NCBI GenBank assembly: GCA_020721585.1
Contig: DYMK01000003.1
Location: 62,001 to 126,000 of the forward strand
Length of the DNA: 64,000 nucleotides
Origin: Sulfuricurvum sp.
GTDB taxonomy: Bacteria > Campylobacterota > Campylobacteria > Campylobacterales > Sulfurimonadaceae
Direction of reading: 5' to 3'
Of this stretch, positions 1 through 52,414 are shown piece after piece. Position 1 is the first letter of the stretch, and each line of letters opens with the position of its first letter. A program made the position numbers and the translations under genes. Below the pieces are notes generated by a model. That model saw only the letters and a list, made by a program, of their open reading frames with translations. It ran no database searches and was not told the DNA's origin.

Positions 1-880
1 TATCCAGTAGAAGAGTGATCCCTTTTTGGTAACTTTTGGGGGAAATTTTAATGGCAAGGGAGGCGCGCTCTTTTTCGATAAAACTGGGAAGTTTGTACCC
101 CAATACCAAAGAAGAATCGACAAAACCATTCATTTTGATGGTCGTGTTAAACAAATACAACTCGGTCAAAAATTTACTTAACGTAGTGAGAAAATAGATC
201 TCATTAACCCCCGATTCGAGTAATTTTTCCAGATCAGTGAGGTAACTTTTCTTCTCAATAATATGGGTAATCAGGGTGTCTAATGTGATTTCATTGAGTC
301 CATACACGTGTTCGTCAATCTCTAAGGGGGTGATAGGTTTGTTGAGCAATGCCAATTTTGACAACTCATTGCACGCTAATCCAAGGTCATTGTTATGACA
401 CTCCAATAGATGAATCGCCGCTTGGGTACTCAAAGAAACGCCCAAACGCTCCCCTTCGTGGATAAGAATCGTCCTTGCTTCATTGGCAAAAGGGGTATAC
501 AGTCGCACCGATCCCGTATGTGCACCTTTAAACGCAGTGTCCACCCCTTTGACATCCTCCCCATAATAACAGTAGATAAAGGTGTTGTCAGGGTTTTTTC
601 CCACCAACGTGACCAATGTATCCAGCTCCGCTTTGGGAAGTTTTTTGTCGTGTTTGATAATCAAAAGATTTTGATCCCCAAACAGTGACCCCTGAGAGAG
701 ATGGGCTTTGGCAGTCGTAAAGTCATACTCATCATAGTACAGACTCAAAACCGATGCCCCCTCACTGTTGGCAAGCGCTCGCGCGTAACGGTCGATTAAA
801 AAATGGCTCTCCCCAAAAAGTGCCATCGCATGAGGAGCGGTTTTTTTTTGTAAATGGCGGTCTAGGTCTTGGCGGGTCAT
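1..880 (-). CDS. holA: DNA polymerase III subunit delta (HolA), C-terminus cut by window edge
   Basis: The minus strand reads as one open frame from an ATG at 880 to the left edge, starting MTRQDLDRHLQKKTAPHAMA and continuing with LFGESHFLIDRYARAL, SLYYDEYDFTTAKAHLSQGS and LFGDQNLLIIKHDKKLP. This matches the N-terminal layout of the clamp-loader delta subunit, which opens the beta clamp and loads it onto DNA. Later segments such as AAIHLLECHNNDLGLACNEL fit the helical lid and collar regions. About 293 residues are visible, and the stop codon lies outside the window. The gene is immediately downstream of the hepT stop (885), so the accessory block sits directly upstream of it. The family assignment is by recognition of the sequence; HolA is weakly conserved between phyla. 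Confidence 0.8.
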   Translation of the reverse strand, partial: MTRQDLDRHLQKKTAPHAMALFGESHFLIDRYARALANSEGASVLSLYYDEYDFTTAKAHLSQGSLFGDQNLLIIKHDKKLPKAELDTLVTLVGKNPDNTFIYCYYGEDVKGVDTAFKGAHTGSVRLYTPFANEARTILIHEGERLGVSLSTQAAIHLLECHNNDLGLACNELSKLALLNKPITPLEIDEHVYGLNEITLDTLITHIIEKKSYLTDLEKLLESGVNEIYFLTTLSKFLTELYLFNTTIKMNGFVDSSLVLGYKLPSFIEKERASLAIKISPKSYQKGITLLLD

Positions 881-884
881 TGAT

Positions 885-1286
885 TTACGGTTCCTGACTT
901 ATTTTTAAACAGTTGATTGATACATCGTTTCGCATCGTTTGAAGTACCAATAAAAGTTCAGAAATATTATTTTGGCAAATTCCATAAATCATTTCAGCAT
1001 CCAAATCAAAATAATGGTGACTGATAAAATCTCTAATTCCTTTAATTTTTTTCCATTCAATTGTTGGATAAAGTGGTAAAAGCGTGTGATTCGTAATCTT
1101 ATCAATATTTTTTAGACTTTCACCAATAGCGATTAGTTTCATACAAATACTATCGAGTTTTTCTTGCCCTGCTTTTGTATCCATAAAGTCATCAACACAC
1201 GTGGCGTATACGCATCGCTCTTGCACAATCTCAATTGATTCTATAATCTGGTCGAGTATTTCTATCACTAAAACTTTATCATACAT
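885..1286 (-). CDS. hepT: HepT-like HEPN toxin (DUF86) of a MntA/HepT pair
   Basis: A 133-residue, mostly helical protein. It carries RDFISHHY at residues 85-92, an exact RX4HXY motif (Arg85, His90, Tyr92), the catalytic signature of HEPN ribonuclease toxins of the HepT/DUF86 group. In characterised pairs the toxin cleaves RNA and is silenced when the MntA partner adds AMP to the tyrosine of this motif. The ATG at 1286 overlaps the mntA stop and has an AGAGAGG ribosome site, so translation is probably coupled to mntA. Base composition is more AT-rich than in holA, consistent with acquisition. I am confident of the family; activity is inferred. Confidence 0.85.
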   Translation of the reverse strand: MYDKVLVIEILDQIIESIEIVQERCVYATCVDDFMDTKAGQEKLDSICMKLIAIGESLKNIDKITNHTLLPLYPTIEWKKIKGIRDFISHHYFDLDAEMIYGICQNNISELLLVLQTMRNDVSINCLKISQEP

Positions 1287-1569
1287 AAATAGCCTCTCTT
1301 AAAATCCTATTTTTTAAAGAGAGATTCATTTTATCTCTCAGTCTGATAACATCAACTTTGGTATGAAATCTATTTTCTAATGTCTCTTTAAAATCATACA
1401 GAACAAAATAATCGCTCAGTTGTGTCTCAATAGCAATATCAACATCACTATCGTCTCGATTTTCCCCTCGGGCATACGAGCCAAAAAGTGCCATTTTAGA
1501 AATTTGATATTTATTTTTAAACTCATTTTTGTGCTGTTTTAGATAGTGTAATATTTCTTCTTTTATCAT
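1279..1569 (-). CDS. mntA: MntA-like nucleotidyltransferase antitoxin
   Basis: A 96-residue minimal nucleotidyltransferase. The motif GSYARGENRDDSDVD at residues 30-44 fits GSX10DXD exactly, with Asp42 and Asp44 as metal ligands. In known MntA/HepT systems the protein is the antitoxin: it AMPylates the toxin's HEPN tyrosine. I place the start at the ATG at 1569 (MIKEEILHYL) because it follows AAGAGG at a good distance; an upstream in-frame ATG at 1602 would add 11 residues without a comparable ribosome site. It overlaps hepT by 8 nt, typical of a toxin-antitoxin operon. Confidence 0.85.
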   Translation of the reverse strand: MIKEEILHYLKQHKNEFKNKYQISKMALFGSYARGENRDDSDVDIAIETQLSDYFVLYDFKETLENRFHTKVDVIRLRDKMNLSLKNRILREAIYV

Positions 1570-1657
1570 TAAATACCTCTTACTATAATGTAAGCAACTC
1601 AATTGCGTCCGCAGTGTGGACGTAATTGGAAGCTTTGTTTATTCAATAAATTTATTT

Positions 1658-4426
1658 TCATGCGAAAACTTCATTAGTAAGTGCTCTATTATTTAGCATT
1701 GCGAGGCTTATTTCGTTGCCGTCAATATTAACGACTTTATTGAACAAAATTCCAAAGATTTGCTTTTCACTTCTTCCATTTGCTTCAAGTGATTGTTTTT
1801 CATCCAAAAGTACTGCTTTGAATTTTGAAACTAAGTCATTTTGAGATGAGGGATATTTTTCTTCTCGATACGCACGATTAGTCTGTATATTTTTTAAGTA
1901 GGGATATTTAGATAAATCATAGTGTACATTGCACTCTTTACATTGATAGAAAGTTTCGGAAAGCTCTTCCATCCATTGACCACATTTATAGCAAAAATAT
2001 TCTGCTTTTTCTAAATGTCCTAATTTATTATCTATTTTATATCTTAAATCAAGATGAACATGTAGGTTATTGTTTAATAAATTATTTTTTCTTCGTTCAA
2101 ACATAGCGTGCGAACAACAGCTTCCACATGTATGGCAAATATATAATCCATTTGAACATTTTTGGGATTCCCTACTGTCTATAATGGCATTACATTGTCC
2201 ATTTAGACAATGATTTAAATAAATCACCTTCTCGTGCAATCCACATTGTTGATTAACACATGAAAATCTGGTAACAGAATAAGCGGCAACTGCAGCTTCA
2301 ACGGGATATAGTATATGTCCACACTCGGCACAATACATTCTTTCTAAAAGTTTTTGAAAACGATTTAAGATAGTAACAAATTTAATATATTCACCAATTG
2401 GAAAAGTTGCAAGCTTAGTTTTTTCTTCAAGTGATAATTCTAAAATATTTATGAAATCATAAAGAGTATATTCTTTCCACTGCTGTACACTGTGTAGATG
2501 AATATTGTTTTGATAACACTTACCTCCTGCACACCACCAAAATTTTCTAGGAGATATTAAATTTGCTTCTATCGTTTCAACACCAGAACAAAATTCAATA
2601 TCAGCAGGTTTACTTTTTATATCAAGATAAATCTCAACTAAATGGCTATTGTCTTGGAACTTATTTTCAGAGTTTATAAGAAATCTATGTGCTTTGGCAA
2701 AAGCCATAAGTTCGTCGCCATGTCTTAGTGGAACGCCCCAATATCTACCATCTGAGTTGTATCTTGAACCAGGAATCTTTCTAATTGCCTCTACAATGTC
2801 TCTAATGTAATCAAATACTACTTTAAAATAGTATCTTTCCTCACCATTAGAGGTAATAAATCTTTCTTTTGTTATCGCTCCATTCGTTTGGTCTGAAATT
2901 CTAAGGCGACCCATTCCTTCACATTTGTCAAAGTAATGGTCAATTTGAATTTTTCTTGATTTATGATTACCAATTGAAGTCAATACGGTCTTTATAAGCT
3001 CCTTTTCAGCTATGAACTTTCCATGATTTTGAAAACTATAGAGAATATTAGCAATAAGCAGTGTTGAAACATCAACAATCTGTTTATAATTATTGATAGC
3101 ATTGACAACTTTTTCACTAAGAAAAACACCCATATCTTCAGCAGTAAATTCCAATTTCAACAGCGAACGCAGATGAAAGAGTTTTTTCATGAATAAAACT
3201 TGATTTTCAGAAGAATAATTCAGCAAGCTATTGTGAATAACGTGAGTAAAATGTTTAAATTCAAAGTCACCTTCTAATATATTTTCTAAATCACATATTA
3301 TATTTTCAAGTAAAAGTTGTTCTTCGGAATGTGATAGAAGTAGCCATGTAATCTTATCAATTGTTGGGTGCAATTTTAGTTTTTCATATAAACGAAGAGT
3401 AATTTTTGGAATATTTTTTTCTATATCAACAAACTTTAGTTCTAATGTCTCAATATAGCCAGCTTCCCATGAATCGAATATAAAAATAGAATCATCACTT
3501 TTGGTTAACCTTATTGCTATTTCATGATTAACTATTGCTTCTATTGTTGATTGATTGTTCAATACTTTTAGAAGTCTGCTCGCTTCCGCAATAATACTTT
3601 TTGTTTCAATTTCTGAAATAATCTTTTTGACTTTCAGTACAGCATACTCAATTAATGAATCATTTGCCATTCCATAATTGATTAACTTATAAATCAATTC
3701 GGAATTATTTTCTTCTAATAGTACTTTATAAATATTTATCACATCTGGATGTGATATTAATTTTTTAAATAAAGTGATGTTGAATTTTAGAATATTCTCT
3801 TTAATTATCTCTAATGTCAAATCGTCAGTATTAAGAAAACCTTTTTCCCACAATTCAAATATAAAAAAATTATCATCAGGTGTTTCTTGTGCACGGATAG
3901 AAGCATTTTTTTGAATTAATTCATTCGCTATAAAGTCTTTATCAAAATATTTATACAGTTTTTCTATAAAATCAAAAAAATTATCATTAGTTACTTGATA
4001 AAGTTTATTTTCCAAAACAATATTAAAATGTGTAAAAGAAACTGGATTTTGTTTAAAGATTATATTCACTAATTTAGTGGATTTATTATTGGGTTTTATT
4101 GTAATTGCTAATTTCCCACGATGTTGGATTGTAAGCTCATATAAAAGTTTAAAATCCTCTATTGAATAATTGAAATAGCGACACTGCTTAGCTGTAATTT
4201 TTCCTCGTTCAAATATAACGTCAAAAACCAAAGGTAATGGATTGCTTGTAATGTCAATTGTGCTTTTATCTAACCAATTAGTTATATGAATAAAAACTTC
4301 ATTATATTTTTGTATGTCAATTGATTTATCTTGCTTGTTTTGAATCTCAATAGTCGAATCTATCGTTGATATTACGCCATAGCCTTTTTCTGTAGAATAC
4401 CATTGAAAGATACCTATTTGTTGCAT
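1658..4426 (-). CDS. Large unrecognised protein with N-terminal cold-shock-like domain, HARP-like segment and C-terminal zinc ribbons
   Basis: A 922-residue AT-rich protein of unknown function. The N-terminus (IGIFQWYSTEKGYGVI and EVFIHITNWLDK) resembles a cold-shock/OB nucleic-acid-binding fold. Two related helical units follow, each opening with IF(D/E)xWExG (near residues 190 and 315), which looks like an internal duplication. Around residues 535-590, RKIPGSRYNSDGRYWGVPL resembles the HARP module of SMARCAL1-type annealing helicases, although no helicase motor is present. The last 200 residues hold at least six CxxC-type cysteine pairs (for example CAECGH, CHTCGSCC, CYKCGQ and CKECNVHY), implying several zinc ribbons. 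The start follows AAGGAA. It sits beside a toxin-antitoxin pair between housekeeping genes. A nucleic-acid-binding defence or stress role is inference only. Confidence 0.6.
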   Translation of the reverse strand: MQQIGIFQWYSTEKGYGVISTIDSTIEIQNKQDKSIDIQKYNEVFIHITNWLDKSTIDITSNPLPLVFDVIFERGKITAKQCRYFNYSIEDFKLLYELTIQHRGKLAITIKPNNKSTKLVNIIFKQNPVSFTHFNIVLENKLYQVTNDNFFDFIEKLYKYFDKDFIANELIQKNASIRAQETPDDNFFIFELWEKGFLNTDDLTLEIIKENILKFNITLFKKLISHPDVINIYKVLLEENNSELIYKLINYGMANDSLIEYAVLKVKKIISEIETKSIIAEASRLLKVLNNQSTIEAIVNHEIAIRLTKSDDSIFIFDSWEAGYIETLELKFVDIEKNIPKITLRLYEKLKLHPTIDKITWLLLSHSEEQLLLENIICDLENILEGDFEFKHFTHVIHNSLLNYSSENQVLFMKKLFHLRSLLKLEFTAEDMGVFLSEKVVNAINNYKQIVDVSTLLIANILYSFQNHGKFIAEKELIKTVLTSIGNHKSRKIQIDHYFDKCEGMGRLRISDQTNGAITKERFITSNGEERYYFKVVFDYIRDIVEAIRKIPGSRYNSDGRYWGVPLRHGDELMAFAKAHRFLINSENKFQDNSHLVEIYLDIKSKPADIEFCSGVETIEANLISPRKFWWCAGGKCYQNNIHLHSVQQWKEYTLYDFINILELSLEEKTKLATFPIGEYIKFVTILNRFQKLLERMYCAECGHILYPVEAAVAAYSVTRFSCVNQQCGLHEKVIYLNHCLNGQCNAIIDSRESQKCSNGLYICHTCGSCCSHAMFERRKNNLLNNNLHVHLDLRYKIDNKLGHLEKAEYFCYKCGQWMEELSETFYQCKECNVHYDLSKYPYLKNIQTNRAYREEKYPSSQNDLVSKFKAVLLDEKQSLEANGRSEKQIFGILFNKVVNIDGNEISLAMLNNRALTNEVFA

Positions 4427-4697
4427 AATTTTATTCCTTATCTATCAGCATGTATATGTCTCCACAAAGAGACAACTGTATCAACAATAAAACACAAATT
4501 GTTTCTAGCTTGTGAAGAATAAAAAATTGCTTACATGACGCACCTTTTTTCTCAACATAGTGTCATTTTAGCTTAAGCGCAATTGGAAGTCAAACGCCAT
4601 CATGTCCTTTGTCGATTTTCCCCATCAACGATCCTGCAATCTTCGTAGTGGCTAAATCAATCATCACGCGAATGAATCGGGGTGACGAATAAAAAAA
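4427..4697. other. AT-rich intergenic spacer between ccsBA and the 922-residue gene
   Basis: This 271-bp spacer has no convincing gene. On the minus strand, in frame beyond the ccsBA stop, a short open stretch reads MIDLATTKIAGSLMGKIDKG and a few more residues, ending near 4593. It could be a gene remnant, but it is too short to assign. CGCAATTGGAAG near 4580 resembles the GTAATTGGAAG near 1623 on the other side of the 922-residue gene, so the two could be boundaries of one acquired block; this is weak evidence. Confidence 0.3.
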
Positions 4698-7600
4698 TTA
4701 TTCTATACGCCGTTTAGGATACGCCATAGCAATAAGGATCGCAATGATTGCATACGTCCATGGGACGAAATCGGGAACGGGAACAGGGTCGCCTTTGGCG
4801 TACGAGTGCATCCCTGCTAGATAATAATTGACCCCAAAATAGGTCATCAATACCGATGTAAACGCCAAAAGGGAAATGACACTAAATGCAAAGTCGGTAT
4901 ACAGCCCTTTGATCATACGCAAATGCACCACAACCGCATAGACCAAAATGGTCACCAATGCCCATGTCTCTTTGGGATCCCATCCCCAATAGCGTCCCCA
5001 ACTCTCATTTGCCCAAACGCCACCCAAGAAATTGCCCACGGTCAGAAGGACTAATCCGACCAAAAGGGTCATCTCATTGATCGCATTGAGTTCTTTGATT
5101 GAGAGGTTCAAACGCACGGCATTATGGGGATTTTTAAGGACAAAGAGGATCAAGCTAATCATCCCTAACAAAGCACTTAACCCCAAAAAGCCATAACTTG
5201 CCGTAATCATCGAGACGTGAATGCTCAACCAATACGACTGCAAGACAGGCACCAAATTGGTCACTTGCGGATCCATCCAATTAAGATGGGCAACAAACAA
5301 AATCAATCCCGCCATCATCCCCGTAGCTGCAAGGGTCATAAGTGATTTTCGGGCAAAAATAAATCCTGCCAGCATCGTCGCCCATCCGATGTAGATCATC
5401 GACTCATACCCATTCGACCATGGGGCGTGACCGGCAATGTACCATCGCATCAGCAATCCAAGGGTGTGTGCCAAGAATAATAGTCCCAACACACTCACAG
5501 CAACACGGTTCACTCCCAAAAAGCGGATGGAAGGGTTCAGAATTTTGGCAAACGAGATTATTAAGAGGCTCAAACCTACGGAAAAATACCATGGCAATAA
5601 TTTCTCAAAAATGTTGGTTTGATTGTACAAAATCTCCACGTCAATTTTATTCTTAGAGGGGTAAACACTCGCCCCAACAAAACGTTGATACTTCTCAATC
5701 AATCCTAATGCTTTATTCGCATTATCCCAATTACCACTTTTAAGGGCTTCATCAACCGCGGTAAAATAGTTGACCGCCATAAGACGCACCATCTCTGATT
5801 CTTTGGGAGGGAGGGTTTGTAACGCATCAATGGTCGCATCCCATTTGTGACGCGGATCATTGGGTTTGGGCCACATTTGGATCAACGATCCTGTATAGAC
5901 CATATATGCCACATTCACCCGTTCATCCACTTGCAAGAGGGCTTTGTCCAATTTATCGTGTTTGGCAGGGGCTTTTCGCGTTGCGGCATCGACCAACTCG
6001 GCTAATTTATACCCACTGTTATCTGAGGGAACATCAAAAAACTGGGAAAATGCTGCCATTTTGGTTTCGGGAGGGAGACCAATACGTTTGTTAATCTCAG
6101 GATTCCCCGTTTTTATGAGGGCAATTTCCCGCCACGCATCGGGGCGAAGCATCATCCCTAAGACAATTTGATTGGGTGAGAGACCCATAAAACGATCGCT
6201 ACGGTTAAGTTTTGCGACGATTTCATGCGCTAACGTATCCAGTGGTTTCATTCGACCGCTGGCATCTTGAATCACCAAATGACCAAATTGATCGGCATGG
6301 TCAGCATCAAAACTTTTGGCAACCGTAATAACGGGATTTTCCTCTGCATGAAGACCACTTCCCATCATGACCATGACCATCACTGCCAATGAGGCGACCA
6401 GTTTTCCCCCTTCGAGTTTTTTAAGCTTGTGACTGAGTTGGGCAAAACGACCATTTTTAACCACTAAACTCCCAAATAATCCCACTGCAAGCAAAAGATA
6501 GCCGATATACGTAATAATCGTCCCCGGATCTTTGTTGACCGATAGGACTGTCCCGTGTTCATCTTGATCGTAGGAAGATTGGAAAAAGCGAAATCCCTCA
6601 TAATCCAAGACATGGTTCATATAGATACGAAAGGGGAAGATCATATTCGATCCTTTATCGATCAAGGTCACCTCACTGGCATACGATGCAGGAGACATGG
6701 AACCGGGATAACGCTCCAACTGAAAATCGTTCAGGGCAAGGGCAAACGGCAATTTTCGCTCGATGGATCCATAGGTCACTTCTACTGACATATCCCCTAA
6801 AACTACAACACTTTTTTCACCCACAACGCTCGGTGAGCCTAATACCACCACCTTGGCGTGATTTTGTCCAAAGGTTACCTCAAAGGTTAGGGCATCATCC
6901 CCTTTTGCCATCGGTGCTTTAGTGGATTGAGAGACCAACTTCATCGATGCGTTGGGTAAAAATGCCCGTAAAACAAAACTCGTTTGGTCACTTTGGAAAA
7001 GTGTCCGTGCAGCAAGAGGCGTTTTTCCCGCAGCGACACTGGAGGATTCACGCGTATCCATACTCAACGTTTTGAGTTCCATAGGGGTATCCATCACCAA
7101 ATGATCCCCCTCCACACTCAAGGCAATCACGGGTTTTTGAAACGTTTTATGGGAACCAAAATCGATCACGACATCATTGGCTTCATAAAAATCCCCCGCT
7201 TTGAGGCTCACTGACTCTCCACCCCCGCCAGCGGTAATCATCATGTTTGCCACGGGAATCCCTTTGGGATCGGCAACGGCTTCATAATGGGCGTTGGGGA
7301 GATAGCTTTCAAGGGAAACTGTGACATTTTCCCCCGTAGTAGTACGTAAAGTTTTATCAAAATGGTTTTGGGAGCGTTTGGAAAGATACAACGGTTCTTG
7401 GAAGGTGGTACTTTTGTCCCCATGATGAACCACAAAACTCACATACGGTTCGGCACTGATCAAAAGATTACTGGTCTCCCCCTCACGGATGTGCATCGTC
7501 CCCTCATAGCCAAAATAACGGGTTACCCCTGCTCCGACCAAAATAATTAAAAAGGCGAGGTGAAACATAAAAACTGCCCATTTCTCTTTTCGCGCCATAT

Positions 7601-7805
7601 TGAATCGAAGAATATTCAAAAAGAGGTTCAACGCTAATAAGGCTAAAAGAAGCTCAAACCAACGGGCATTATAGATGTCAGCTTTGGCACTCATCGTACC
7701 ATAATCATTTTCAACAAACGTCGCATACCCAATGGTAATGGCAAACGTCAATAAAAGGGTTGCCATGGTTTTCATGGAGCTTAATAACGTGTAAAGTGTA
7801 TTCAT
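4698..7805 (-). CDS. ccsBA: Cytochrome c synthase CcsBA (fused ResB/ResC, system II)
   Basis: A 1035-residue membrane protein that exports haem and attaches it to apocytochromes c in the periplasm. The N-terminal ResB-like half has several membrane segments (for example ATLLLTFAITIGYATF), a long periplasmic domain and a segment near 450-470. The C-terminal CcsA half carries the haem-handling WWD motif as WGRYWGWDPKETWALVT and a final membrane helix. The single-chain fusion is typical of Campylobacterota and close to the family's usual length. I prefer the ATG at 7805 (MNTLYTLLSSMK), which has an AGG-type ribosome site; an in-frame ATG 10 codons upstream is less likely. Its presence implies c-type cytochrome respiration, consistent with the haem-binding sensor at 30-32 kb. 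Confidence 0.95.
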   Translation of the reverse strand: MNTLYTLLSSMKTMATLLLTFAITIGYATFVENDYGTMSAKADIYNARWFELLLALLALNLFLNILRFNMARKEKWAVFMFHLAFLIILVGAGVTRYFGYEGTMHIREGETSNLLISAEPYVSFVVHHGDKSTTFQEPLYLSKRSQNHFDKTLRTTTGENVTVSLESYLPNAHYEAVADPKGIPVANMMITAGGGGESVSLKAGDFYEANDVVIDFGSHKTFQKPVIALSVEGDHLVMDTPMELKTLSMDTRESSSVAAGKTPLAARTLFQSDQTSFVLRAFLPNASMKLVSQSTKAPMAKGDDALTFEVTFGQNHAKVVVLGSPSVVGEKSVVVLGDMSVEVTYGSIERKLPFALALNDFQLERYPGSMSPASYASEVTLIDKGSNMIFPFRIYMNHVLDYEGFRFFQSSYDQDEHGTVLSVNKDPGTIITYIGYLLLAVGLFGSLVVKNGRFAQLSHKLKKLEGGKLVASLAVMVMVMMGSGLHAEENPVITVAKSFDADHADQFGHLVIQDASGRMKPLDTLAHEIVAKLNRSDRFMGLSPNQIVLGMMLRPDAWREIALIKTGNPEINKRIGLPPETKMAAFSQFFDVPSDNSGYKLAELVDAATRKAPAKHDKLDKALLQVDERVNVAYMVYTGSLIQMWPKPNDPRHKWDATIDALQTLPPKESEMVRLMAVNYFTAVDEALKSGNWDNANKALGLIEKYQRFVGASVYPSKNKIDVEILYNQTNIFEKLLPWYFSVGLSLLIISFAKILNPSIRFLGVNRVAVSVLGLLFLAHTLGLLMRWYIAGHAPWSNGYESMIYIGWATMLAGFIFARKSLMTLAATGMMAGLILFVAHLNWMDPQVTNLVPVLQSYWLSIHVSMITASYGFLGLSALLGMISLILFVLKNPHNAVRLNLSIKELNAINEMTLLVGLVLLTVGNFLGGVWANESWGRYWGWDPKETWALVTILVYAVVVHLRMIKGLYTDFAFSVISLLAFTSVLMTYFGVNYYLAGMHSYAKGDPVPVPDFVPWTYAIIAILIAMAYPKRRIE

Positions 7806-7880
7806 TTCAAACCTAATACGATAAGATGGGTGCAATTGTAATCACACTTAGGTAAATGTAGGTTAATCCCAAAGGGGTAA

Positions 7881-9233
7881 TCAAATACCCTCAAGGATCA
7901 TCGCCTCAGAGAGGCGTTTAAACGCAGCGATATTGGCTCCATCGACAAAATTGCGCTCTTTGCCATGCTCTTTGGCAGTTTGGGAAATTTGTTTGTAGAT
8001 GTGACACATAATATCATTGAGTTTTCGATCCAGTTTTTTGATGTCCCACCGTTCCATCGAAGCGTTTTGGGACATTTCAAACTCACTGACCGCAACGCCC
8101 CCCGCATTGGAGGCTTTTCCCGGAGCGAAAAGAACCCCATTGCGTTGAAACAACTCAATGGCTTGGGGCATGGTGGGCATATTTGCCCCCTCTACCACCG
8201 CTTTGACACCATTGTTAAGCAATATTGTCGCATCCTCAAGACTCAGCTCATTTTGGGTCGCACAGGGAAAAGCGGCATAACAAGGGTGTGTCCATACGCT
8301 GTGACCGTGAGGAGGATATGCCTCTTTTTTGGTATACACTGACCCTTGACGCGTGGGGGTATACTGTTCCAGTGATAATCGTCGTCCCTCCCCCTTGAGG
8401 GTTTTGAGAAGGGGTAAATCAATTCCCTTAGGGTCATAAAGTGAGCCTTCACTGTCACTGCACGTGATCACTTTTGCCCCCAATTGTTGGAGTTTTTCAA
8501 TGGTATGAATCGCTACATTTCCCGCACCGCTCACGCAACACACTTTCCCCCACAACGAATCCCCCAGCTCCGCTTTGAGCATCTCTGCGGCAAAATAAGC
8601 AACCCCATACCCCGTCGCTTCAGGACGCAAAAGCGAGCCTCCAAATGCGTAAGGTTTTCCACTCAAAACACCATCATAGTTGTGGCTAATGCGTTTGTAT
8701 TCTCCAAACAAAAACCCTATTTCACGACTCCCTACTCCAATATCTCCTGCGGGGACATCGACACGCGCCCCGATGTATTGGTGCAACTCACGCATAAAGG
8801 CGTGGCAAAATTTCATGATTTCAAAATCACTTTTCCCTTTGGGATCAAAATCCGATCCCCCTTTTGCCCCTCCGATGGGAAGTCCTGTCAACGAATTTTT
8901 GAAAATTTGTTCAAACGCCAAAAATTTCAATACCCCAGAATCAACACTGGGATGGAAACGCAATCCCCCCTTGTACGGTCCCAAAGCGTTGTTAAACTGA
9001 ACACGGTAGCCATTGTTAATATGGACTTTATTGTTATCATCCACCCATTGCACTTTAAAACGGATTTCCCGATCGGGGACAATGAGACGTTCTAAAATCG
9101 CATAGGTCTCATACCGCTTATCGCTTTGCAATACAGGTTCTAAGGATCGGACGACCTCACTGACCGCTTGGATAAAGGTTCCATCCATGGCACAATTGGT
9201 GCGTTCCAAATGGGCTAAAAAATTTTCAACCAT
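7881..9233 (-). CDS. gdhA: NADP-type glutamate dehydrogenase
   Basis: A 450-residue hexameric-type glutamate dehydrogenase, making glutamate from 2-oxoglutarate and ammonium, or the reverse. The substrate-binding region YKGGLRFHPSVDSGVLKFL, the lysine motif LPIGGAKGGSDFDPKGKS, and DVPAGDIGVGSREIG are all intact, as is the nucleotide-binding segment VCCVSGAGNVAIHTIEKL. Length matches the bacterial NADP(H) class. A TATAAT box on the minus strand (9315-9310) lies upstream, and the start follows AAGGAAA. The gene is monocistronic, with a palindromic repeat in the gap before it. Confidence 0.96.
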   Translation of the reverse strand: MVENFLAHLERTNCAMDGTFIQAVSEVVRSLEPVLQSDKRYETYAILERLIVPDREIRFKVQWVDDNNKVHINNGYRVQFNNALGPYKGGLRFHPSVDSGVLKFLAFEQIFKNSLTGLPIGGAKGGSDFDPKGKSDFEIMKFCHAFMRELHQYIGARVDVPAGDIGVGSREIGFLFGEYKRISHNYDGVLSGKPYAFGGSLLRPEATGYGVAYFAAEMLKAELGDSLWGKVCCVSGAGNVAIHTIEKLQQLGAKVITCSDSEGSLYDPKGIDLPLLKTLKGEGRRLSLEQYTPTRQGSVYTKKEAYPPHGHSVWTHPCYAAFPCATQNELSLEDATILLNNGVKAVVEGANMPTMPQAIELFQRNGVLFAPGKASNAGGVAVSEFEMSQNASMERWDIKKLDRKLNDIMCHIYKQISQTAKEHGKERNFVDGANIAAFKRLSEAMILEGI

Positions 9234-9309
9234 GGTCTATTGCTTTCCTTACTATTTTGATGTTACGCAGTGCGTTATTTTTTGGTTTGAATTGCATAAA
9301 AATCTTAAA

Positions 9310-9315
9310 ATTATA
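9310..9315 (-). promoter_or_regulatory. Predicted -10 box for gdhA
   Basis: On the minus strand the hexamer reads TATAAT, about 77 nt upstream of the gdhA ATG, in an AT-rich context. No clear -35 is visible, which is common for epsilonproteobacterial housekeeping promoters. Confidence 0.5.
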
Positions 9316-9333
9316 CTCAATATCACAAACGTC

Positions 9334-9392
9334 CCTCACTCCCGCGAAGGCGGGAGTCTAGCTGGATTCCCGCCTTCGCGGGAATGACGAAA
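9334..9392. repeat. Composite palindromic repeat, inverted copy of the 27.85-kb element
   Basis: Two back-to-back hairpins: ACTCCCGCGAAGGCGGGAGT, then a short TCTAGCTGG linker, then ATTCCCGCCTTCGCGGGAAT. The core matches ATTCCC-N8-GGGAAT, the pattern called dRS3 in Neisseria. The whole unit is nearly the reverse complement of the element at 27854-27915 and its copy near 28584-28645. It lies between gdhA and the helicase gene, both read leftward, so it could also end transcription or protect a 3' end. Confidence 0.85.
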
Positions 9393-9425
9393 CTCAAATA
9401 CGACTTACAAAATCTGCAACATCAG

Positions 9426-10706
9426 TTAATACGATTTTCGACCTGAATTACTGGGACGACGCGCACCATCGCGTTTTTGTCCTTGGGGTTTTCCGCTGGG
9501 GGAGTGGTTATTTCCCCGTCCACCACCGCCGCCACGCCCTTGCAAAATGGGCATTGCAACGATGGTCGGATCGGGTTCAAACCCTGCAATAATGTCACGA
9601 TCCAATTTACGATGGATGAGTTTTTCAATCCCCTTAAGATAGTCATATTCATCGACACACACCAAGGAAATCGCTTCCCCCTCATTGCCCGCACGACCCG
9701 TTCGACCAATACGGTGAACGTAATCTTCGGCAATATTGGGCAATTCAAAATTCACCACATGCGGAAGCTGATCGATGTCCAATCCCCGTGCAGCAATGTC
9801 CGTCGCAACCAAAATTTTAACGATTCCCAATTTAAAATCGCTTAACGCTTTGGTACGTGCGGCTTGGCTTTTGTTTCCATGAATTGCAGCGGAGGTGACC
9901 CCGATTTTTTGGAGATAATCCGAAAGCTTATTGGCTTGGTGCTTGGTGCGGGTAAAGACCAACACTTGCTCCCATTTATGTTCTTTGACTAGATGCCCAA
10001 ACAGGACACTTTTTTTGGCACAGTCGACCAAGATAACTTTTTGGGTCACCAACTCACTGGAGGTATTACGACGCGCCACTTCGACGATGGCAGGGTTGCG
10101 TAAAATGGATTCGCACAACGTTTTGATCTCATCCGAATAGGTTGCGGAAAAGAGGAGATTTTGCCGTTTTTGGGGCAAGATGGAGATAACCCGACGAATG
10201 TCTTTGATAAATCCCATGTCCAACATTCGATCCGCTTCATCCAAAATCAACATCTCCACATGGCGTAAATCGATGGTTCCTTGGGCAACATGATCCAACA
10301 ATCGCCCCGGAGTAGCAATCACAATATCGACCCCTTGACGTAAAGCGGCAATTTGGGGTTGAATCCCTACGCCGCCAAAAATAATCGCACTTTTAAATTT
10401 GAGGTATTTGCCATAGGTTTTGACGCTCTCTCCCACTTGGGCAGCAAGCTCACGGGTGGGGGTGAGGATCAATACCCGTACCTGACGCGGTACTTTGGGG
10501 TTGATCGCTTTACGGGAGAGAATCTCCAACATAGGCAACGTAAATCCTGCCGTTTTTCCCGTACCCGTTTGGGCGCCGGCGAGCATATCCCGCCCTTCTA
10601 AAATAAAGGGAATCGCCTGTGCTTGGACAGGGGTTGGGGTGGTGTATCCCTCTTCGGTTACCGCTTTTAGGAGTGCGGGAGAGAGTTTTAAATCGGTAAA
10701 TAACAT
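9426..10706 (-). CDS. DEAD-box RNA helicase, RhlE-like
   Basis: A 426-residue ATP-dependent RNA helicase. All motifs are visible in order: Q motif ([13 protein letters not shown]), Walker [31 protein letters not shown] in [17 protein letters not shown] in [24 protein letters not shown] and [11 protein letters not shown] glycine- and arginine-rich tail ([16 protein letters not shown]) follows, as in many RhlE proteins, and probably binds RNA. The role is likely ribosome assembly or mRNA turnover. A minus-strand TATAAT at 10812-10807 may be its promoter. Confidence 0.93.
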
Positions 10707-10806
10707 AGTAGTAAAATTCCTTTAGGTGGTTCAAGCAGACAAAATTTGCGAGAGAAAAGATGCACATTGTGAGCGGCTTACGGATTTTTCCGTTTTGAAT
10801 GGTCGT

Positions 10807-10812
10807 ATTATA
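10807..10812 (-). promoter_or_regulatory. Predicted -10 box for the DEAD-box helicase gene
   Basis: TATAAT on the minus strand about 100 nt upstream of the helicase ATG, inside the divergent gap shared with the ATPase gene at 10921. Confidence 0.45.
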
Positions 10813-10867
10813 ACGCACTTTAGACCCAAATACCGATTCACCCCCCATTTTGGTTTCCCAAAAACGG

Positions 10868-10873
10868 TACAAT
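10868..10873 (+). promoter_or_regulatory. Possible -10 box for the ATPase/TOPRIM operon
   Basis: TACAAT on the plus strand, about 48 nt before the ATPase ATG. It resembles other -10 boxes in this window, but no -35 is evident. Confidence 0.35.
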
Positions 10874-10920
10874 AACGGTCACTGTACGGCAAAAAACTAT
10901 TTCCCAACACGAGGTTGACC

Positions 10921-11877
10921 ATGAATGACCATTTCATCAAAAATATCGAAATCAAAAATTTTAAATGTTTTGAAGATTTTACCGCTGAAGGGTTTGGACG
11001 AGTCAATCTCATCGGTGGCAAAAATAATGTGGGGAAGACGGCTTTTATGGAGGCGGTTTATGTAAATGTTTATGCACAAAATATCAAATGCTTTATTGGT
11101 TCACTACAAGCTATTAAATATATGCGAGAGAATCTTAATATTTTAGAAAATCGATTTTTAGATGATACTAAAAAATTTGTCGAACAAGCCAATCGTATTT
11201 TGGTTACTTCCAATATCAATCATGCCCATTTTCGTATTGATGAGCATGAAGGGGTTAAAAAATATCATTTTGAATTTAATAACCAAACGATTGATGTGAA
11301 TGCCAATGAATTTTCATTTGACCTTGACTACATACCAAATATAGAATTTATTGATAATTTTGGACTCTCTAATAGCGACATTGAAGATGCCTATCTATCT
11401 GTACAGAAAAAAGATAAAGAGCAGTTTATTAATGGTATTTTACATAAGTTTGACAGCCGTATAGAAAAATTTATCGGTGGAGATACTCCACAATGTAGAG
11501 TCAATGGCAAGTGGCTTGAGCTTACAGAACTAGGAGATGGAGCGAGACATTTGGTGTCTATTGTTGCGACTCTTTTTAAATGTGAAAGTGGTTATTTGTT
11601 TATAGACGAGTTAGACAATGGGATCCATTACACGCAACTTGATGAACTGTGGGAAATCATCCTCACCGTTTCCCAAGAGCAAAACGTTCAAGTTTTCGCC
11701 ACCACCCATTCCAAAGAATGCATCGAATCGTACGCGCGAGTGGCGAAAAAATTAGCCGATGAAGAGGTTACCTACAGTCTCTTAACACGCCTAAAAAGTG
11801 GTAAATTGCATCATTCTCTCTATGACTATGCTCTTTTAGAAAATGCTATTATTGAACAAGCACACGAGGTACGATAA
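10921..11877 (+). CDS. AAA15/AAA21-type ATPase, OLD-like, partner of a TOPRIM protein
   Basis: A 318-residue SMC/ABC-like ATPase. Walker A is GGKNNVGKT (residues 32-40), an ABC-type signature appears as LTELGDGARHLVSI, Walker B is GYLFIDELDNGIH (around 224-236), and the switch histidine segment is VFATTHSKECIES. This is the layout of OLD-family and AriA-type ATPases, without the C-terminal TOPRIM nuclease that full-length OLD proteins carry. That activity appears to be supplied by the next gene, which overlaps as TAATG. The start at 10921 follows GAGG; an upstream TTG is less likely. The middle of the gene is AT-rich relative to its flanks. Known relatives are mostly phage-defence proteins; that role here is inferred. 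Confidence 0.8.
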   Translation: MNDHFIKNIEIKNFKCFEDFTAEGFGRVNLIGGKNNVGKTAFMEAVYVNVYAQNIKCFIGSLQAIKYMRENLNILENRFLDDTKKFVEQANRILVTSNINHAHFRIDEHEGVKKYHFEFNNQTIDVNANEFSFDLDYIPNIEFIDNFGLSNSDIEDAYLSVQKKDKEQFINGILHKFDSRIEKFIGGDTPQCRVNGKWLELTELGDGARHLVSIVATLFKCESGYLFIDELDNGIHYTQLDELWEIILTVSQEQNVQVFATTHSKECIESYARVAKKLADEEVTYSLLTRLKSGKLHHSLYDYALLENAIIEQAHEVR

Positions 11878-12446
11878 TGGCATCGGTGGCAATACTTCAT
11901 GAGGGTAACGAAAAAAATACCCATGACAATGAACTTCTTAAACTCTTAGTCAGAGAGTTAGGTCTGGACGAAAATCGTATCCGATTTTTTGGGATGAAGG
12001 GAAAAAGTAATTTTTTTAACGAGGATCACGATACCTATCGACTTTTACGCACAGGCATTGAGAATGAAACCATCGAAAAAGTTTTAGTGATCGTTGATGC
12101 AGATTATGAAAAAAACGACCATAGTTATGGTGGCTATGACAACACCCTAAAAGGTTTAAAGAAAACGTTTACCTCCTTACAATTTACCCCTTATTGTGAC
12201 ATTTATATCATGTGTGACCCTAACACCCAAGCAGGATATTTGGAATCTTTTCTGTTGTCAACCATTCCATCGCACCAAAAAGCGTGTATTGAAACTTTTT
12301 TAGCGTGTTCAGAATTCAAATCAAAAGAGAACCACAAAGCCATTCTGAATCAAATCTACAACCTAGCCTATCCCAAAGCCCCCTTCGACTTCACTCATCC
12401 CCACTTCGACGACCTCAAAACCAAACTTTGTAACCTTTTCACGTGA
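11877..12446 (+). CDS. TOPRIM-domain protein (DUF3226-like), probable effector partner of the OLD-like ATPase
   Basis: A 189-residue protein with a TOPRIM layout: an acidic residue after the first strand (VAILHEGNEK, Glu9) and a DxD pair after a later strand (VLVIVDADYEKND, Asp74 and Asp76). This metal-binding fold occurs in OLD nucleases, topoisomerases and primases. The ATG is embedded in the ATPase stop (TAATG), so the two are almost certainly co-translated. An ATPase and a separate TOPRIM protein is the layout of PARIS (AriA/AriB), where AriB is a TOPRIM nuclease, although PARIS uses the DUF4435 branch and this looks closer to DUF3226. The 3' end overlaps the next gene by 4 nt. Confidence 0.7.
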   Translation: MASVAILHEGNEKNTHDNELLKLLVRELGLDENRIRFFGMKGKSNFFNEDHDTYRLLRTGIENETIEKVLVIVDADYEKNDHSYGGYDNTLKGLKKTFTSLQFTPYCDIYIMCDPNTQAGYLESFLLSTIPSHQKACIETFLACSEFKSKENHKAILNQIYNLAYPKAPFDFTHPHFDDLKTKLCNLFT

Positions 12447-13378
12447 AAACCTTTACCATCCAACCTCTCATCGACATTCTTGCATGGGCAAATGAGCAAC
12501 TCCAAGAAAGCGACACGATACGCTTTGAAGTCCTCAATCCCGATTGTGGTCGAGGGCATTATGCGGGGGAGAGACTCACCCTAGAGGGGACTGAGTATTG
12601 CTATCGCAGTTACAAAGCGTGGAGCGATTTGGGAGAATTGCTCTTTTGTCGGATGCTCACCCCCCAAATACTCACCCAATCCACCATCCTTCTCACCTAT
12701 GAAAAACTCGATTGTAGCGACTCATTTCACCGCAGTGAGACGCACGAGGAAAAATATGGGACGACCTCCCCCTTCGCCCGCATTCACAAAAACGAAGAAC
12801 CCAGTTTTGTAAGTCCCTATCTACGAGCGTTACGCAGTGTCAAGGTGGGGGAGAGAAAACGGATCCTTAATTTGGGGATCAATACGGGGGATGAGTTTGA
12901 TCTTATCCGTCAAATGCTCCCTAAAGAAATCTATGAAAATCTCTCCCTTATCGGCATCGACCATTCATCCTCGGCTATTGCTGCCGCACGCGAACGGTTC
13001 CCTGAGGGGAATGCGACCTTTTTTGTCCATGATATTAACGATTTAGCGTCATTGGACATGGGACTCTTTGATCTGATTATCACCATTGGGACGTTGCAAA
13101 GCAGCAACTTGGAATTCAAACCGCTTTTTATGTCCTTAGTCCAAAATCACCTGACCCAAGAGGGATCACTGATTATCGGTTTTCCCAATTGTCGTTGGAT
13201 GGGAGGGGAGATGATTTACGGTGCTAAAGCCCCCAATTACCCCTATTCGGAGATGTCCATTCTCATCAAAGATCTTTATTATTGCAAAAAATATTGCCAA
13301 CAAAAACGGTTTCGTGTTACGGTAACGGGCAGAGATTACCTCTTTTTAACCGCCACTTCCCTCAAAAAGGGTCTATAA
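12443..13378 (+). CDS. Class I SAM-dependent methyltransferase, substrate unknown
   Basis: A 311-residue protein with a Rossmann-type SAM site in its C-terminal half: RILNLGINTGDEFDLIRQML (motif I), LIGIDHSSSAIAAARERFP (acidic loop), then FDLIITIGTLQSSNLE (motif IV region). The N-terminal 140 residues (for example LNPDCGRGHYAGERLTLEG) are a separate domain I cannot assign. Translation starts at a GTG that overlaps the upstream stop (GTGA). Base use is close to the core genome, so it may be a resident gene that the AAA/TOPRIM pair landed beside, rather than a third component of that pair. Confidence 0.7.
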   Translation: MKTFTIQPLIDILAWANEQLQESDTIRFEVLNPDCGRGHYAGERLTLEGTEYCYRSYKAWSDLGELLFCRMLTPQILTQSTILLTYEKLDCSDSFHRSETHEEKYGTTSPFARIHKNEEPSFVSPYLRALRSVKVGERKRILNLGINTGDEFDLIRQMLPKEIYENLSLIGIDHSSSAIAAARERFPEGNATFFVHDINDLASLDMGLFDLIITIGTLQSSNLEFKPLFMSLVQNHLTQEGSLIIGFPNCRWMGGEMIYGAKAPNYPYSEMSILIKDLYYCKKYCQQKRFRVTVTGRDYLFLTATSLKKGL

Positions 13379-13392
13379 AAGCTTTAAGCGAT

Positions 13393-13398
13393 TATAAT
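13393..13398 (+). promoter_or_regulatory. Predicted -10 box for the MFS transporter gene
   Basis: A perfect TATAAT 32 nt before the MFS start codon, in a short intergenic gap. It suggests an operon start covering the transporter and the lytic transglycosylase. Confidence 0.55.
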
Positions 13399-13429
13399 CG
13401 AAGGCTATTTATCACTATTGGGAGTTTGA

Positions 13430-14662
13430 ATGTCTAAACCAAATACCTCTGTTATTGCTCAAGTGTTAACCCTTCCTGTCATTGTTATTGCGATGGGATA
13501 TTTTGTCGATATTTATGATTTAATTTTATTTGGAGTCGTTCGGGTTGCTAGTCTCACCGAATTGGGACTTAACAGCGAACAAATCACCTCATGGGGTGCC
13601 ACCATCCTCAATATGCAAATGGGGGGGATGCTCATCGGGGGGATCATTTGGGGGATGTTAGGGGACAAAAAAGGGCGTTTATCGGTTCTTTTTGCCTCCA
13701 TTATCCTCTATTCAGTCGCCAATTTTCTCAATGCGTTTGTCACCAACGTGGAGCAATACGCCCTTTTGCGTCTCCTTGCGGGGATCGGTCTTGCGGGTGA
13801 ATTGGGAGCGGGCGTAACACTGGTGTCTGAAATTCTTCCCAAACACTTACGGGGATATGGGGTGATGGCGATTGCCAGTTTTGGGGTGCTTGGGGTGGTT
13901 GCCGCCAATATTATCGCCCATAACTTTGATTGGCGTAACGCCTATATCTTCGGAGGAGTTCTTGGGTTTGCGTTGCTACTCTTACGTGTGGGGGTGCGCG
14001 AATCGGGCATTTTTGAGCATCATGTCGCTGATGATGTCAAGCGGGGAGATTTTCTCTTCCTCTTTGGCAACGCTGTTTTATTTAAAAAATACCTCAAAAC
14101 CATCGCCATTGGGATTCCCCTGTGGTTTGTGGTGAGTATTTTGGTGATGTTCTCCCCTGAATTTGCCCAAGCACTTCACATTAGTGGAGAGATTAATGCC
14201 GGTACGGCGCTGATGTATTGTTATATCGGTTTGGCAGTGGGGGATTTTGCCAGTGGGTATCTCTCCCAACAACTCCGCAGCCGTAAAAAAGCGTTCACCC
14301 TCTTTTTAGCAGCATCCGCAGGAAGCGTCATATGGTATTACACCCTACAAGGAGCGTCTCCTGATACGTTTTACTGGAGTGCTTTTGCACTGGGGATTTT
14401 TTGTGGCTATTGGGCATTGTTTATCACCATGGCGGCAGAACAATTTGGAACGAATATCCGTGCGACCGTTGCCACCACTGCCCCCAATTTTGTCCGTGGA
14501 GCCGTTGTCCCCATTACCCTCTCCTTTGCTGCCCTCAAAGAGAGCTACGGAGTATTAGGCTCCGGTGCCATCGTGGGAGCGGCGTGTTTTACCCTCTCTG
14601 CCGTTGCGTTGTATTATACGCATGAAACGTTTCATAAAGATCTTGATTACATCGAATGTTAA
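13430..14662 (+). CDS. MFS transporter, sugar/metabolite:H+ symporter type
   Basis: A 410-residue inner-membrane transporter with about 12 hydrophobic segments. The family signature between helices 2 and 3 is visible as GGIIWGMLGDKKGRLSVL, and the acidic residue of helix 1 is in GYFVDIYDLILFG. The R-rich loop after helix 4 (AGIGLAGELGAGVTLVSEIL) fits the metabolite:H+ symporter family. The substrate cannot be read from sequence; carboxylates are one possibility. It overlaps the next gene by 7 nt. Confidence 0.85.
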   Translation: MSKPNTSVIAQVLTLPVIVIAMGYFVDIYDLILFGVVRVASLTELGLNSEQITSWGATILNMQMGGMLIGGIIWGMLGDKKGRLSVLFASIILYSVANFLNAFVTNVEQYALLRLLAGIGLAGELGAGVTLVSEILPKHLRGYGVMAIASFGVLGVVAANIIAHNFDWRNAYIFGGVLGFALLLLRVGVRESGIFEHHVADDVKRGDFLFLFGNAVLFKKYLKTIAIGIPLWFVVSILVMFSPEFAQALHISGEINAGTALMYCYIGLAVGDFASGYLSQQLRSRKKAFTLFLAASAGSVIWYYTLQGASPDTFYWSAFALGIFCGYWALFITMAAEQFGTNIRATVATTAPNFVRGAVVPITLSFAALKESYGVLGSGAIVGAACFTLSAVALYYTHETFHKDLDYIEC

Positions 14663-15603
14663 GTTCTCTATTCCGTATCGCGCTTATCGTCGCACTGTTT
14701 TCCACCCTCGCGTTGGCAACCTCAATGCCCAATGATGCTGCCCTCAACGCCGCATTAAAATCGATTGGCTCGGATGAATCGTATCAAGAAATTGGAGCGC
14801 TGTCCAATCTAAGGGAAAAATACCGCACCAGCTATAACAGCCATTTGCGTCGCCATCAAGCGACCCAAAAAGAGTATGCATCCATTGAAAAGCAGTTTAG
14901 AAAAGCAGGGATTCCCACGTTTTTTTCGCTTATCCCCTATTGTGAATCGGGGTTTAGAACCAACAGTCATGGGTATGGAACGGCAGGATTGTGGCAATTT
15001 ATGGCGCAATCCGGACGTAACAATGGACTCATCGTCGAAAAAGGGAGAGATGACCGTACCGATGCGTGTCTCTCCACCGAAGCTGCCATCCGTTACGTTA
15101 AACGACTTAAAAAAGATCTTGGAAGTTGGTATTTGGCCGATTTTGCCTACGGGATGGGGGAACTCAAAGTCAAACGGCTAATCCAAAAAAATGGGAGCAA
15201 AAAAATCTCTGTCCTCTTGCGGGATCCTGAATTTTCACGCGGTACCCGAGACCATTTTTCGATCACCCTCCTCCTAGCTGCTACCATTCACCCCTCCAAA
15301 GAGAGCGATGAAAATTCCGACACAATGAGTGACGATCAAAATCAAACGACGAGCATCGACGCTATTGACGAGCGTGATGACGCTTCGTATATCGCTACAC
15401 GAAAGCACCATCACCCTAAAAAACACGTAAAAAGTAAAAAACATAAGCATGAGAAAAAAGGGAAAAAAAGCAAGAAAGGGAAAAAAGATAAAAAAAGCAA
15501 AAAAGCTAAAAAAGGAAAAAAAGGGAAGAAAAGCAAATCCGACAAAAAGGGTAAAAAAGCTAAAAAAAGCAAGCAATCTAAAAAGGGTAACAAGCATCCT
15601 TAA
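14656..15603 (+). CDS. Lytic transglycosylase (SLT domain) with a lysine-rich C-terminal tail
   Basis: A 315-residue exported muramidase-like enzyme that cleaves the glycan strands of peptidoglycan. An N-terminal signal peptide (LFRIALIVALFSTLALATS) is followed by the SLT core: IPYCESGF with catalytic Glu97, then SHGYGTAGLWQFM, and FAYGMGELKVKRLIQ. After a Ser/Asp-rich linker (about 215-245) the last 65 residues are almost all lysine with Ser, Gly and Ala (repeats of KKGKKSKK). Such a tail would be strongly positive and could bind teichoic-like polymers, lipopolysaccharide, peptidoglycan or DNA. Its coding DNA is A-rich and repetitive. Confidence 0.85.
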   Translation: MLSSLFRIALIVALFSTLALATSMPNDAALNAALKSIGSDESYQEIGALSNLREKYRTSYNSHLRRHQATQKEYASIEKQFRKAGIPTFFSLIPYCESGFRTNSHGYGTAGLWQFMAQSGRNNGLIVEKGRDDRTDACLSTEAAIRYVKRLKKDLGSWYLADFAYGMGELKVKRLIQKNGSKKISVLLRDPEFSRGTRDHFSITLLLAATIHPSKESDENSDTMSDDQNQTTSIDAIDERDDASYIATRKHHHPKKHVKSKKHKHEKKGKKSKKGKKDKKSKKAKKGKKGKKSKSDKKGKKAKKSKQSKKGNKHP

Positions 15604-51643: not shown

Positions 51644-52414
51644 TTGACGCTGAGCGATAAAGTATTGGCTGAGTTATGTACGGCGTTAAATATCGATAAT
51701 ACACATCCCGAATATTTCAAATTTGGAAAAGCCGGTGATCTTGTCAATCAAGCTTATTTCAAAATTGCTATCAACGAATTTGCCAATATAAAAACCTCCA
51801 ATTCTACTAAGGTCATAAAATCCGATTTTGATTTTTTGATGGGACTGTACAATAAGCATATCAAAGAGCATCAAGTGATGTTTTTACTGTTCAACATTTT
51901 TGAGACGGCGATCCGTTCAAAAGCGGCAGTTGTTTTATCTCAAAAATACAGTTCTCCAGATCAAGATGATTGGCTTCATAACCCCTCTTTGGTTCCTCCA
52001 AAAATTCAACATACTTTGGATAAATCAGTCGAAATAATCCAACTAGATGGTGAAGACATACAGAATTTGGATACATTTCAGGTTTTCGATTATATATTGC
52101 TCGGCGGATTGAAGACACTCTATATTTCTTTTTGGGCGGATTTAGCAGACCTATTTGAAGAAAAAGAGTTTAAAGGATATAAGCTCAAGAAAATTGGTAA
52201 AAAATCGATGACGATCATGCTTGAGTCGATACGAAAGTCTCGTAATGACAATGCCCATCATAAACCATTTCACAGTAGCCGAAAAAAACGGCATAAAATT
52301 GTTGATGATATAGAATTGATTTTGGCACACCTTGGTTTTAATCTTGAAGATGCTATTACCAACATCGATCCATATCATCGCATCATTCGATTAAAATACT
52401 CGTCCATCTGTTAG
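51644..52414 (+). CDS. Abi-like protein with HEPN-type motif
   Basis: A 256-residue AT-rich protein. LESIRKSRNDNAHHKPF carries RNDNAH, an RX4H motif of the HEPN ribonuclease superfamily, in the arrangement seen in Abi_2-type abortive-infection proteins. The upstream region includes VMFLLFNIFETAIRS, also usual for that group. Start is a TTG after AAAGGG. A role in phage defence is likely for the family but not shown here. Confidence 0.65.
   Translation: MTLSDKVLAELCTALNIDNTHPEYFKFGKAGDLVNQAYFKIAINEFANIKTSNSTKVIKSDFDFLMGLYNKHIKEHQVMFLLFNIFETAIRSKAAVVLSQKYSSPDQDDWLHNPSLVPPKIQHTLDKSVEIIQLDGEDIQNLDTFQVFDYILLGGLKTLYISFWADLADLFEEKEFKGYKLKKIGKKSMTIMLESIRKSRNDNAHHKPFHSSRKKRHKIVDDIELILAHLGFNLEDAITNIDPYHRIIRLKYSSIC

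Follow-up and report, generated by a model that had tools for sequence, protein, structure and literature searches.

A cold-shock, HARP-like and cysteine-rich protein from an unnamed family that recurs beside restriction genes: a possible sensor or adaptor of anti-phage defence operons

The stretch of Sulfuricurvum sp. DNA analysed here (the window, 64,000 nucleotides in all) carries between ccsBA and holA a reading frame that we call X, followed by mntA and hepT (Table 1). An initial annotation had described X as an AT-rich gene for an undescribed 922-residue protein next to a MntA/HepT pair, with its strand left unstated. The frame is real and intact, its GC content is 29.3% against 44.1% window-wide, and both neighbours match the corresponding Pfam families; their products also carry, by eye, what we take to be the RX4HXY and GSX10DXD motifs of such pairs. 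No restriction gene adjoins X in the window. The gap between the X stop codon and mntA holds an inverted repeat with a 14-pair stem (window 1599-1629), which occurs as one exact copy in the window, lacks a T run on the transcribed strand and is possibly an operator or a terminator remnant. A search of window positions 1-15000 against Rfam gave no result.

Table 1. Positions of gene X, of the parts of its product and of the two adjoining genes in the window
Feature	Residues	Window positions	Strand	Remarks
Whole gene X	922 aa	1658..4426	(-)	ATG at 4426; no internal stops; homologues of similar layout in L007, L009-L011, L121
Cold-shock (OB-type) domain	1-70	4217..4426	(-)	HMM and profile-profile matches
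Helical unit 1 (FIFELWEKG)	184-255	3662..3877	(-)	significant duplication
Helical unit 2 (FIFDSWEAG)	311-382	3281..3496	(-)	significant duplication
HARP-like domain	512-587	2666..2893	(-)	Pfam HARP matches in members; high pLDDT; Foldseek 4o66
Cys-rich (probable zinc) module	612-838	1913..2593	(-)	12 Cys and 8 other invariant columns in 16 divergent sequences
C-terminal tail	845-922	1661..1894	(-)	mostly helical in model; absent from aligned relatives
mntA-like antitoxin		1279..1602	(-)	immediately downstream of X; Pfam Polbeta/NTP_transf_2 about 1e-14; GC 29.3%
hepT-like toxin		885..1286	(-)	same insert; HepT-like PF01934 5e-16; GC 31.6%

Within the stretches examined at 29 congeneric holA loci we found neither X nor mntA nor hepT, and in 27 of the 29 the frame just upstream of holA encodes what we take, from its sequence, to be an RNase R-like protein. 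Fifteen congeneric stretches downstream of ccsBA, one of which (L061) covers only 4 kb, contain none of the genes that the window genome has on that side. Since congeneric ccsBA and holA loci lack the trio, it lies at a point of insertion or rearrangement. X was found in none of the 36 congeners searched and, among 60 related genomes, only in its own; order-wide, 1 of 398 genomes has a credible match to the window protein. A second match in the order (G319; E 4e-5, 23 bits) falls in a 91-aa frame with three stops and was put down to chance. On comparison of these genomes, X and the MntA/HepT pair can be taken as shown to have been acquired horizontally, as a low-GC insert. Elsewhere in the window, 6.5 kb from X and beyond three housekeeping genes, lies a second defence-like pair, an AAA_15 ATPase followed by a DUF3226 protein (10915-12446, plus strand), which match the PADLOC candidate pair PDC-M38A/B and AbiLi. 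A weak Abi_2 match (E 5e-4, under the Pfam cut-off) is located at 51644-52414 on the plus strand.

The initial annotation had read the start of the protein as a cold-shock or OB-type domain. Pfam CSD (PF00313) gave no match in the window protein at E<=1. An HMM made from 16 cold-shock proteins of the same order as the window matches residues 3-26 (E 3.5e-4, set size 27), and a comparison of N-terminal profiles with cold-shock proteins gives 97.2% probability, which supports a divergent domain; in two relatives, L010 and L121, Pfam CSD matches above its cut-off. Residues 14-19 (KGYGVI) and 44-48 (VFIHI) resemble both nucleic-acid-binding motifs of cold-shock domains. Compared with bacterial cold-shock proteins, X thus has an N-terminal domain with both motifs, but it is divergent, bears a loop insertion of about 20 residues (likewise present in L007) and is fused to about 850 further residues. 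This region reaches a pLDDT of only about 30-40 in the full-length model, a low confidence for a five-stranded OB fold.

The two related units that follow, already noticed on first reading, are a true duplication: 25 of their 72 residues are identical, and their local alignment score of 120, against a shuffled mean of 34, was equalled in none of 1000 shuffles. Each of four longer relatives has three of these units, which makes the window protein look like a shortened version. HEAT/ARM-like matches of the helical region fell in a stretch with pLDDT <50 and were discarded; the model of the whole protein is of low quality, with a mean pLDDT of 43.

The HARP-like segment of the initial annotation also survived closer analysis. 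Pfam HARP (PF07443) matches the whole window protein at E 0.013 (15.5 bits) and the excised domain at 0.0013 (18.6 bits); as the window protein stays under the Pfam gathering cut-off of 25 bits, we call the domain HARP-like. The same family matches in four of the seven aligned members (best E 6.4e-6), and the HARP sequence motif PGxxYN...WxVP is present. A model of residues 500-845, made from 16 sequences, reaches block pLDDT values of 92-96 over most of the domain, for which the highest-probability Foldseek match is the HARP structure of SMARCAL1, 4o66 (probability 0.90-0.91, but E 0.16-0.19). A profile search of PDB sequences was headed by 4o66 too (E 0.2, not significant alone). X shares the motif with SMARCAL1 HARP and may share its fold, as predicted, but differs from SMARCAL1 in having no SNF2 helicase in the protein. 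HARP and XPB are akin in fold, and an alignment to Archaeoglobus fulgidus XPB gave an rmsd of 1.9 over 55-56 residues with a Z of 5.4, within the range of unrelated rows. Other Pfam matches at this region were MutS_I (in L010, E 0.014) and DUF5710 (E 0.0099).

Towards the end of the protein, where at least six CxxC-type pairs had been claimed, we count seven between residues 632 and 832, four of them CxxC and three Cx4C. Besides the 12 invariant cysteines, the alignment of 16 divergent sequences has eight invariant columns (N, Y, two I, D, R and two G), and the window protein retains all 12 cysteines and the Asp-x-Arg, the latter within IIDSR (residues 748-752), which precedes ICHTCGSCC (763-771; family form ICxxCGSCC). 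This module is common to proteins of Bacteroidota, Firmicutes and Enterobacterales. Judged by this alignment, the terminal array is the family's conserved core, which the initial annotation had missed, and its cysteine pattern suggests that it binds zinc. We accordingly define membership of the family by the 12 Cys and the Asp-x-Arg, and treat location in a restriction operon as its usual context, not as a defining one. The Cys module led neither of the fold searches, and its matches to zinc ribbons of the ribosomal L37a type (best E 0.006) point to nothing more specific than a generic zinc ribbon.

In a pattern-limited scan, 84,980 species genomes yielded 23 loci. Window-type proteins, 31-37% identical, are encoded at L007-L011 (Gallicola, Flavobacteriaceae, Symbiothrix, Holdemania and Flavobacterium records). 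Among 349 genomes of the family of the L011 genome, three have a match, L011's own included; the other two are L121, which is window-type (1169 aa), and L122 (959 aa). Proteins of the Bacteroidota type (741-962 aa) keep the Cys module and have different N-termini; neither CSD nor HARP is detectable in these members. The enterobacterial proteins (592-620 aa) consist of a cold-shock domain and the Cys module, and RefSeq already labels them 'cold shock domain-containing protein'. Those from type I restriction-modification operons (for example WP_227507541.1 in L003) have an N-terminal cold-shock domain, as in the window protein, and a Cys module 30% identical to that of X over about 165 residues. 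They differ in their length of 615-620 aa, in a middle part unrelated in sequence, in having no HARP match and no third set of zinc-ribbon pairs at the end, and in that their genes lie inside type I operons while the window gene does not. Among public plasmids 132 records match, 129 of them from Klebsiella and most near-identical to one another. Of 5,426 complete E. coli genomes 264, or about one in twenty, carry the enterobacterial gene (198 with >=80% of it), always on the chromosome. Both of the E. coli loci examined are type I operons.

Searches of phage genomes, of viral contigs with the window protein and with the group-A alignment, and of the PDB with the window protein alone gave no result. 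NCBIfam and PADLOC have no family covering that of X, Pfam has none above cut-off for the window protein, PHROGs has nothing apart from a cold-shock match in L121, and we found no description in the literature searched, so that 'undescribed' holds within this scope. In PADLOC the window protein has a weak match to PDC-M04B (E 0.021), which was dismissed.

We then counted gene neighbours at 28 loci (L002, L003, L007-L029, L121, L122 and the window; L004, with the same genes as L018, was left out). A type I hsdR directly adjoins the gene in 12 of them (L002, L003, L007, L018, L021-L027 and L122), which represent four lineages (Enterobacterales, the Prevotella type, L007 and L122), eight of the 12 being one close enterobacterial lineage. 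By our own estimate, a random gene would rarely lie next to hsdR. At least three divergent hsdR types are involved: HsdR of Enterobacterales and of Prevotella are 24% identical, that of L122 matches neither, and an L007 HsdR fragment is 48% identical to the Prevotella protein. In Enterobacterales the genes run hsdM-hsdS-yecA-X-hsdR-sprT, in Prevotella hsdM-hsdS-hsdR-X, and in L122 hsdM-hsdS-(three ORFs)-X-hsdR.

Other loci have other defence genes. The L121 gene is preceded by genes for a DndD-like ATPase, DndE-HerA and GmrSD, and the L011 gene by a PDC-M62A/B pair, that locus starting with an ORF which by eye we take to be Cas9-like. In L013 the gene follows a WYL regulator, an AAA_15/DUF3696 ATPase and a 343-aa protein without Pfam match (ATPase and 343-aa protein, positions 5550-7993); these last two both have relatives ahead of hsdM in L002 and L018, and the 343-aa protein has one ahead of X in L009. 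L016 (4659-10705) and L017 (4696-10702) contain a four-gene unit, WYL, HATPase, receiver-like and Cys-module protein, whose HATPase and receiver-like genes have no PADLOC match in L017. This unit is a candidate for a defence operon of two-component-like type. A WYL gene and a presumably helicase-like gene, so labelled by eye, occur in L014 and L015, and Septu-like neighbours are also found among the relatives' loci. No defence gene was found in the neighbourhoods of L012 and L019; L008, L010 and L029 are cut or of insufficient length for such a reading. Where the initial annotation had suggested an RNA- or DNA-sensing accessory protein and looked to defence neighbours for support, these neighbourhoods do favour the accessory and defence part, while the sensing part stays conjectural.

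With the domain order of X, the conservation of its Cys module in different phyla and its repeated occurrence directly beside hsdR, GmrSD and other defence genes observed, we tentatively favour the reading that X belongs to an unnamed accessory family of nucleic-acid-binding sensors or adaptors of restriction-type anti-phage defence operons. The cold-shock domain would bind single-stranded RNA or DNA, the HARP-like domain would bind single/double-strand junctions or distorted DNA arising from phage entry, replication or restriction, and the helical array might serve as a scaffold. The constant Cys (zinc) module would dock onto, and license or target, the motor or nuclease of the neighbouring gene (HsdR, GmrSD or an AAA ATPase), making X an exchangeable sensor or targeting adaptor. 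We prefer an adaptor because no catalytic family was detected in X or its relatives with Pfam and NCBIfam, and because the Cys module is kept although the nuclease or motor partners differ. Counting against this reading are the lack of an adjoining restriction gene in the window, the metabolic or housekeeping surroundings of L020 and L028, the loci L012 and L019 that show no defence gene, the Pfam, Foldseek and XPB values of the window protein given above, and the Bacteroidota-type members in which CSD and HARP are undetectable. At the window locus the usual partner is lacking, and X may work together with restriction enzymes from other parts of the genome; this genome is rich in restriction genes, with 10 HSDR_N matches at E<=0.001 on other contigs and none at the X locus. 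A broader proposal, which we regard as possible but hold with more doubt, is that a single exchangeable immune module, a zinc-cluster protein whose nucleic-acid-sensing heads can be swapped, serves a number of unrelated bacterial defence machines (type I restriction, GmrSD/Dnd-like, Septu-like, AAA-ATPase and HATPase/receiver operons) as their common trigger or effector.

PrrC, the model for the main rival reading, is made up of an ABC ATPase and an anticodon nuclease. By analogy X would be a guard effector, a toxin silenced by the intact restriction complex and freed when a phage disables that complex, its Cys module with the invariant Asp-x-Arg being the effector, which the cold-shock domain brings to RNA. 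The Cys module is indeed the constant part across differing partners, and in L016 and L017 the gene comes last after the HATPase and receiver-like genes, an effector's expected place. The enterobacterial members lie between hsdS and hsdR, the slot reported for DarTG2 (PMC12255303), and PrrC, too, is encoded within a type IC locus (PMC12707154). We nevertheless think this somewhat unlikely. X has no match to ABC ATPases (none at E<=1, Pfam), to anticodon nucleases or to the DarT/DarG families, and a nuclease or other catalytic family is undetectable, the only invariant polar residues besides Cys being N, Y, D and R; moreover, the Prevotella gene follows hsdR instead of lying between hsdS and hsdR.

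The presence of a cold-shock domain and a place just before hsdR in Enterobacterales and L122 would also suit a regulator or self-protection factor, in which mRNA binding by the cold-shock domain, or protection of host forks by the HARP domain, would control hsdR expression or lessen restriction of host DNA. This appears improbable given that the same module stands beside GmrSD, AAA-ATPase and HATPase operons, and that several loci already have dedicated WYL regulators. We give slightly less credence still to X being a general nucleic-acid-binding or repair protein that hitch-hikes on islands without a role in defence: its neighbours are metabolic or housekeeping genes at L020 and L028, but its position right beside divergent hsdR genes of distant phyla and the patchy distribution within the order (one credible match in 398 genomes) speak against it. 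That X belongs to the MntA/HepT toxin-antitoxin module as its third part, as its adjacency, common strand and equally low GC might suggest, is very improbable, since the pair was found at 0 of 21 other loci compared for it, which does not support it as a characteristic partner of X, and since the inverted repeat separates X from mntA.

Accessory genes within restriction operons are a known kind; a family with the domain combination of X is unnamed in Pfam, NCBIfam, PADLOC, PHROGs and the literature searched. Few bacterial immune systems have been studied for as long as type I restriction, yet one such operon holds an unstudied gene, and the question is whether the operon restricts by sequence only or also senses phage through this protein. 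The function is probably a general one, given that relatives are found repeatedly next to unrelated nucleases in other phyla, and natural E. coli operons make the role of X directly testable. Two enterobacterial loci have interrupted restriction genes: in E. coli 005008 (L124, 10264-14848) an IS1 cuts hsdM, with yecA, the cold-shock/Cys gene and hsdR intact, and in a Klebsiella michiganensis contig (L023, 10658-13941) hsdR is split into two frames and the Cys-module gene is intact.
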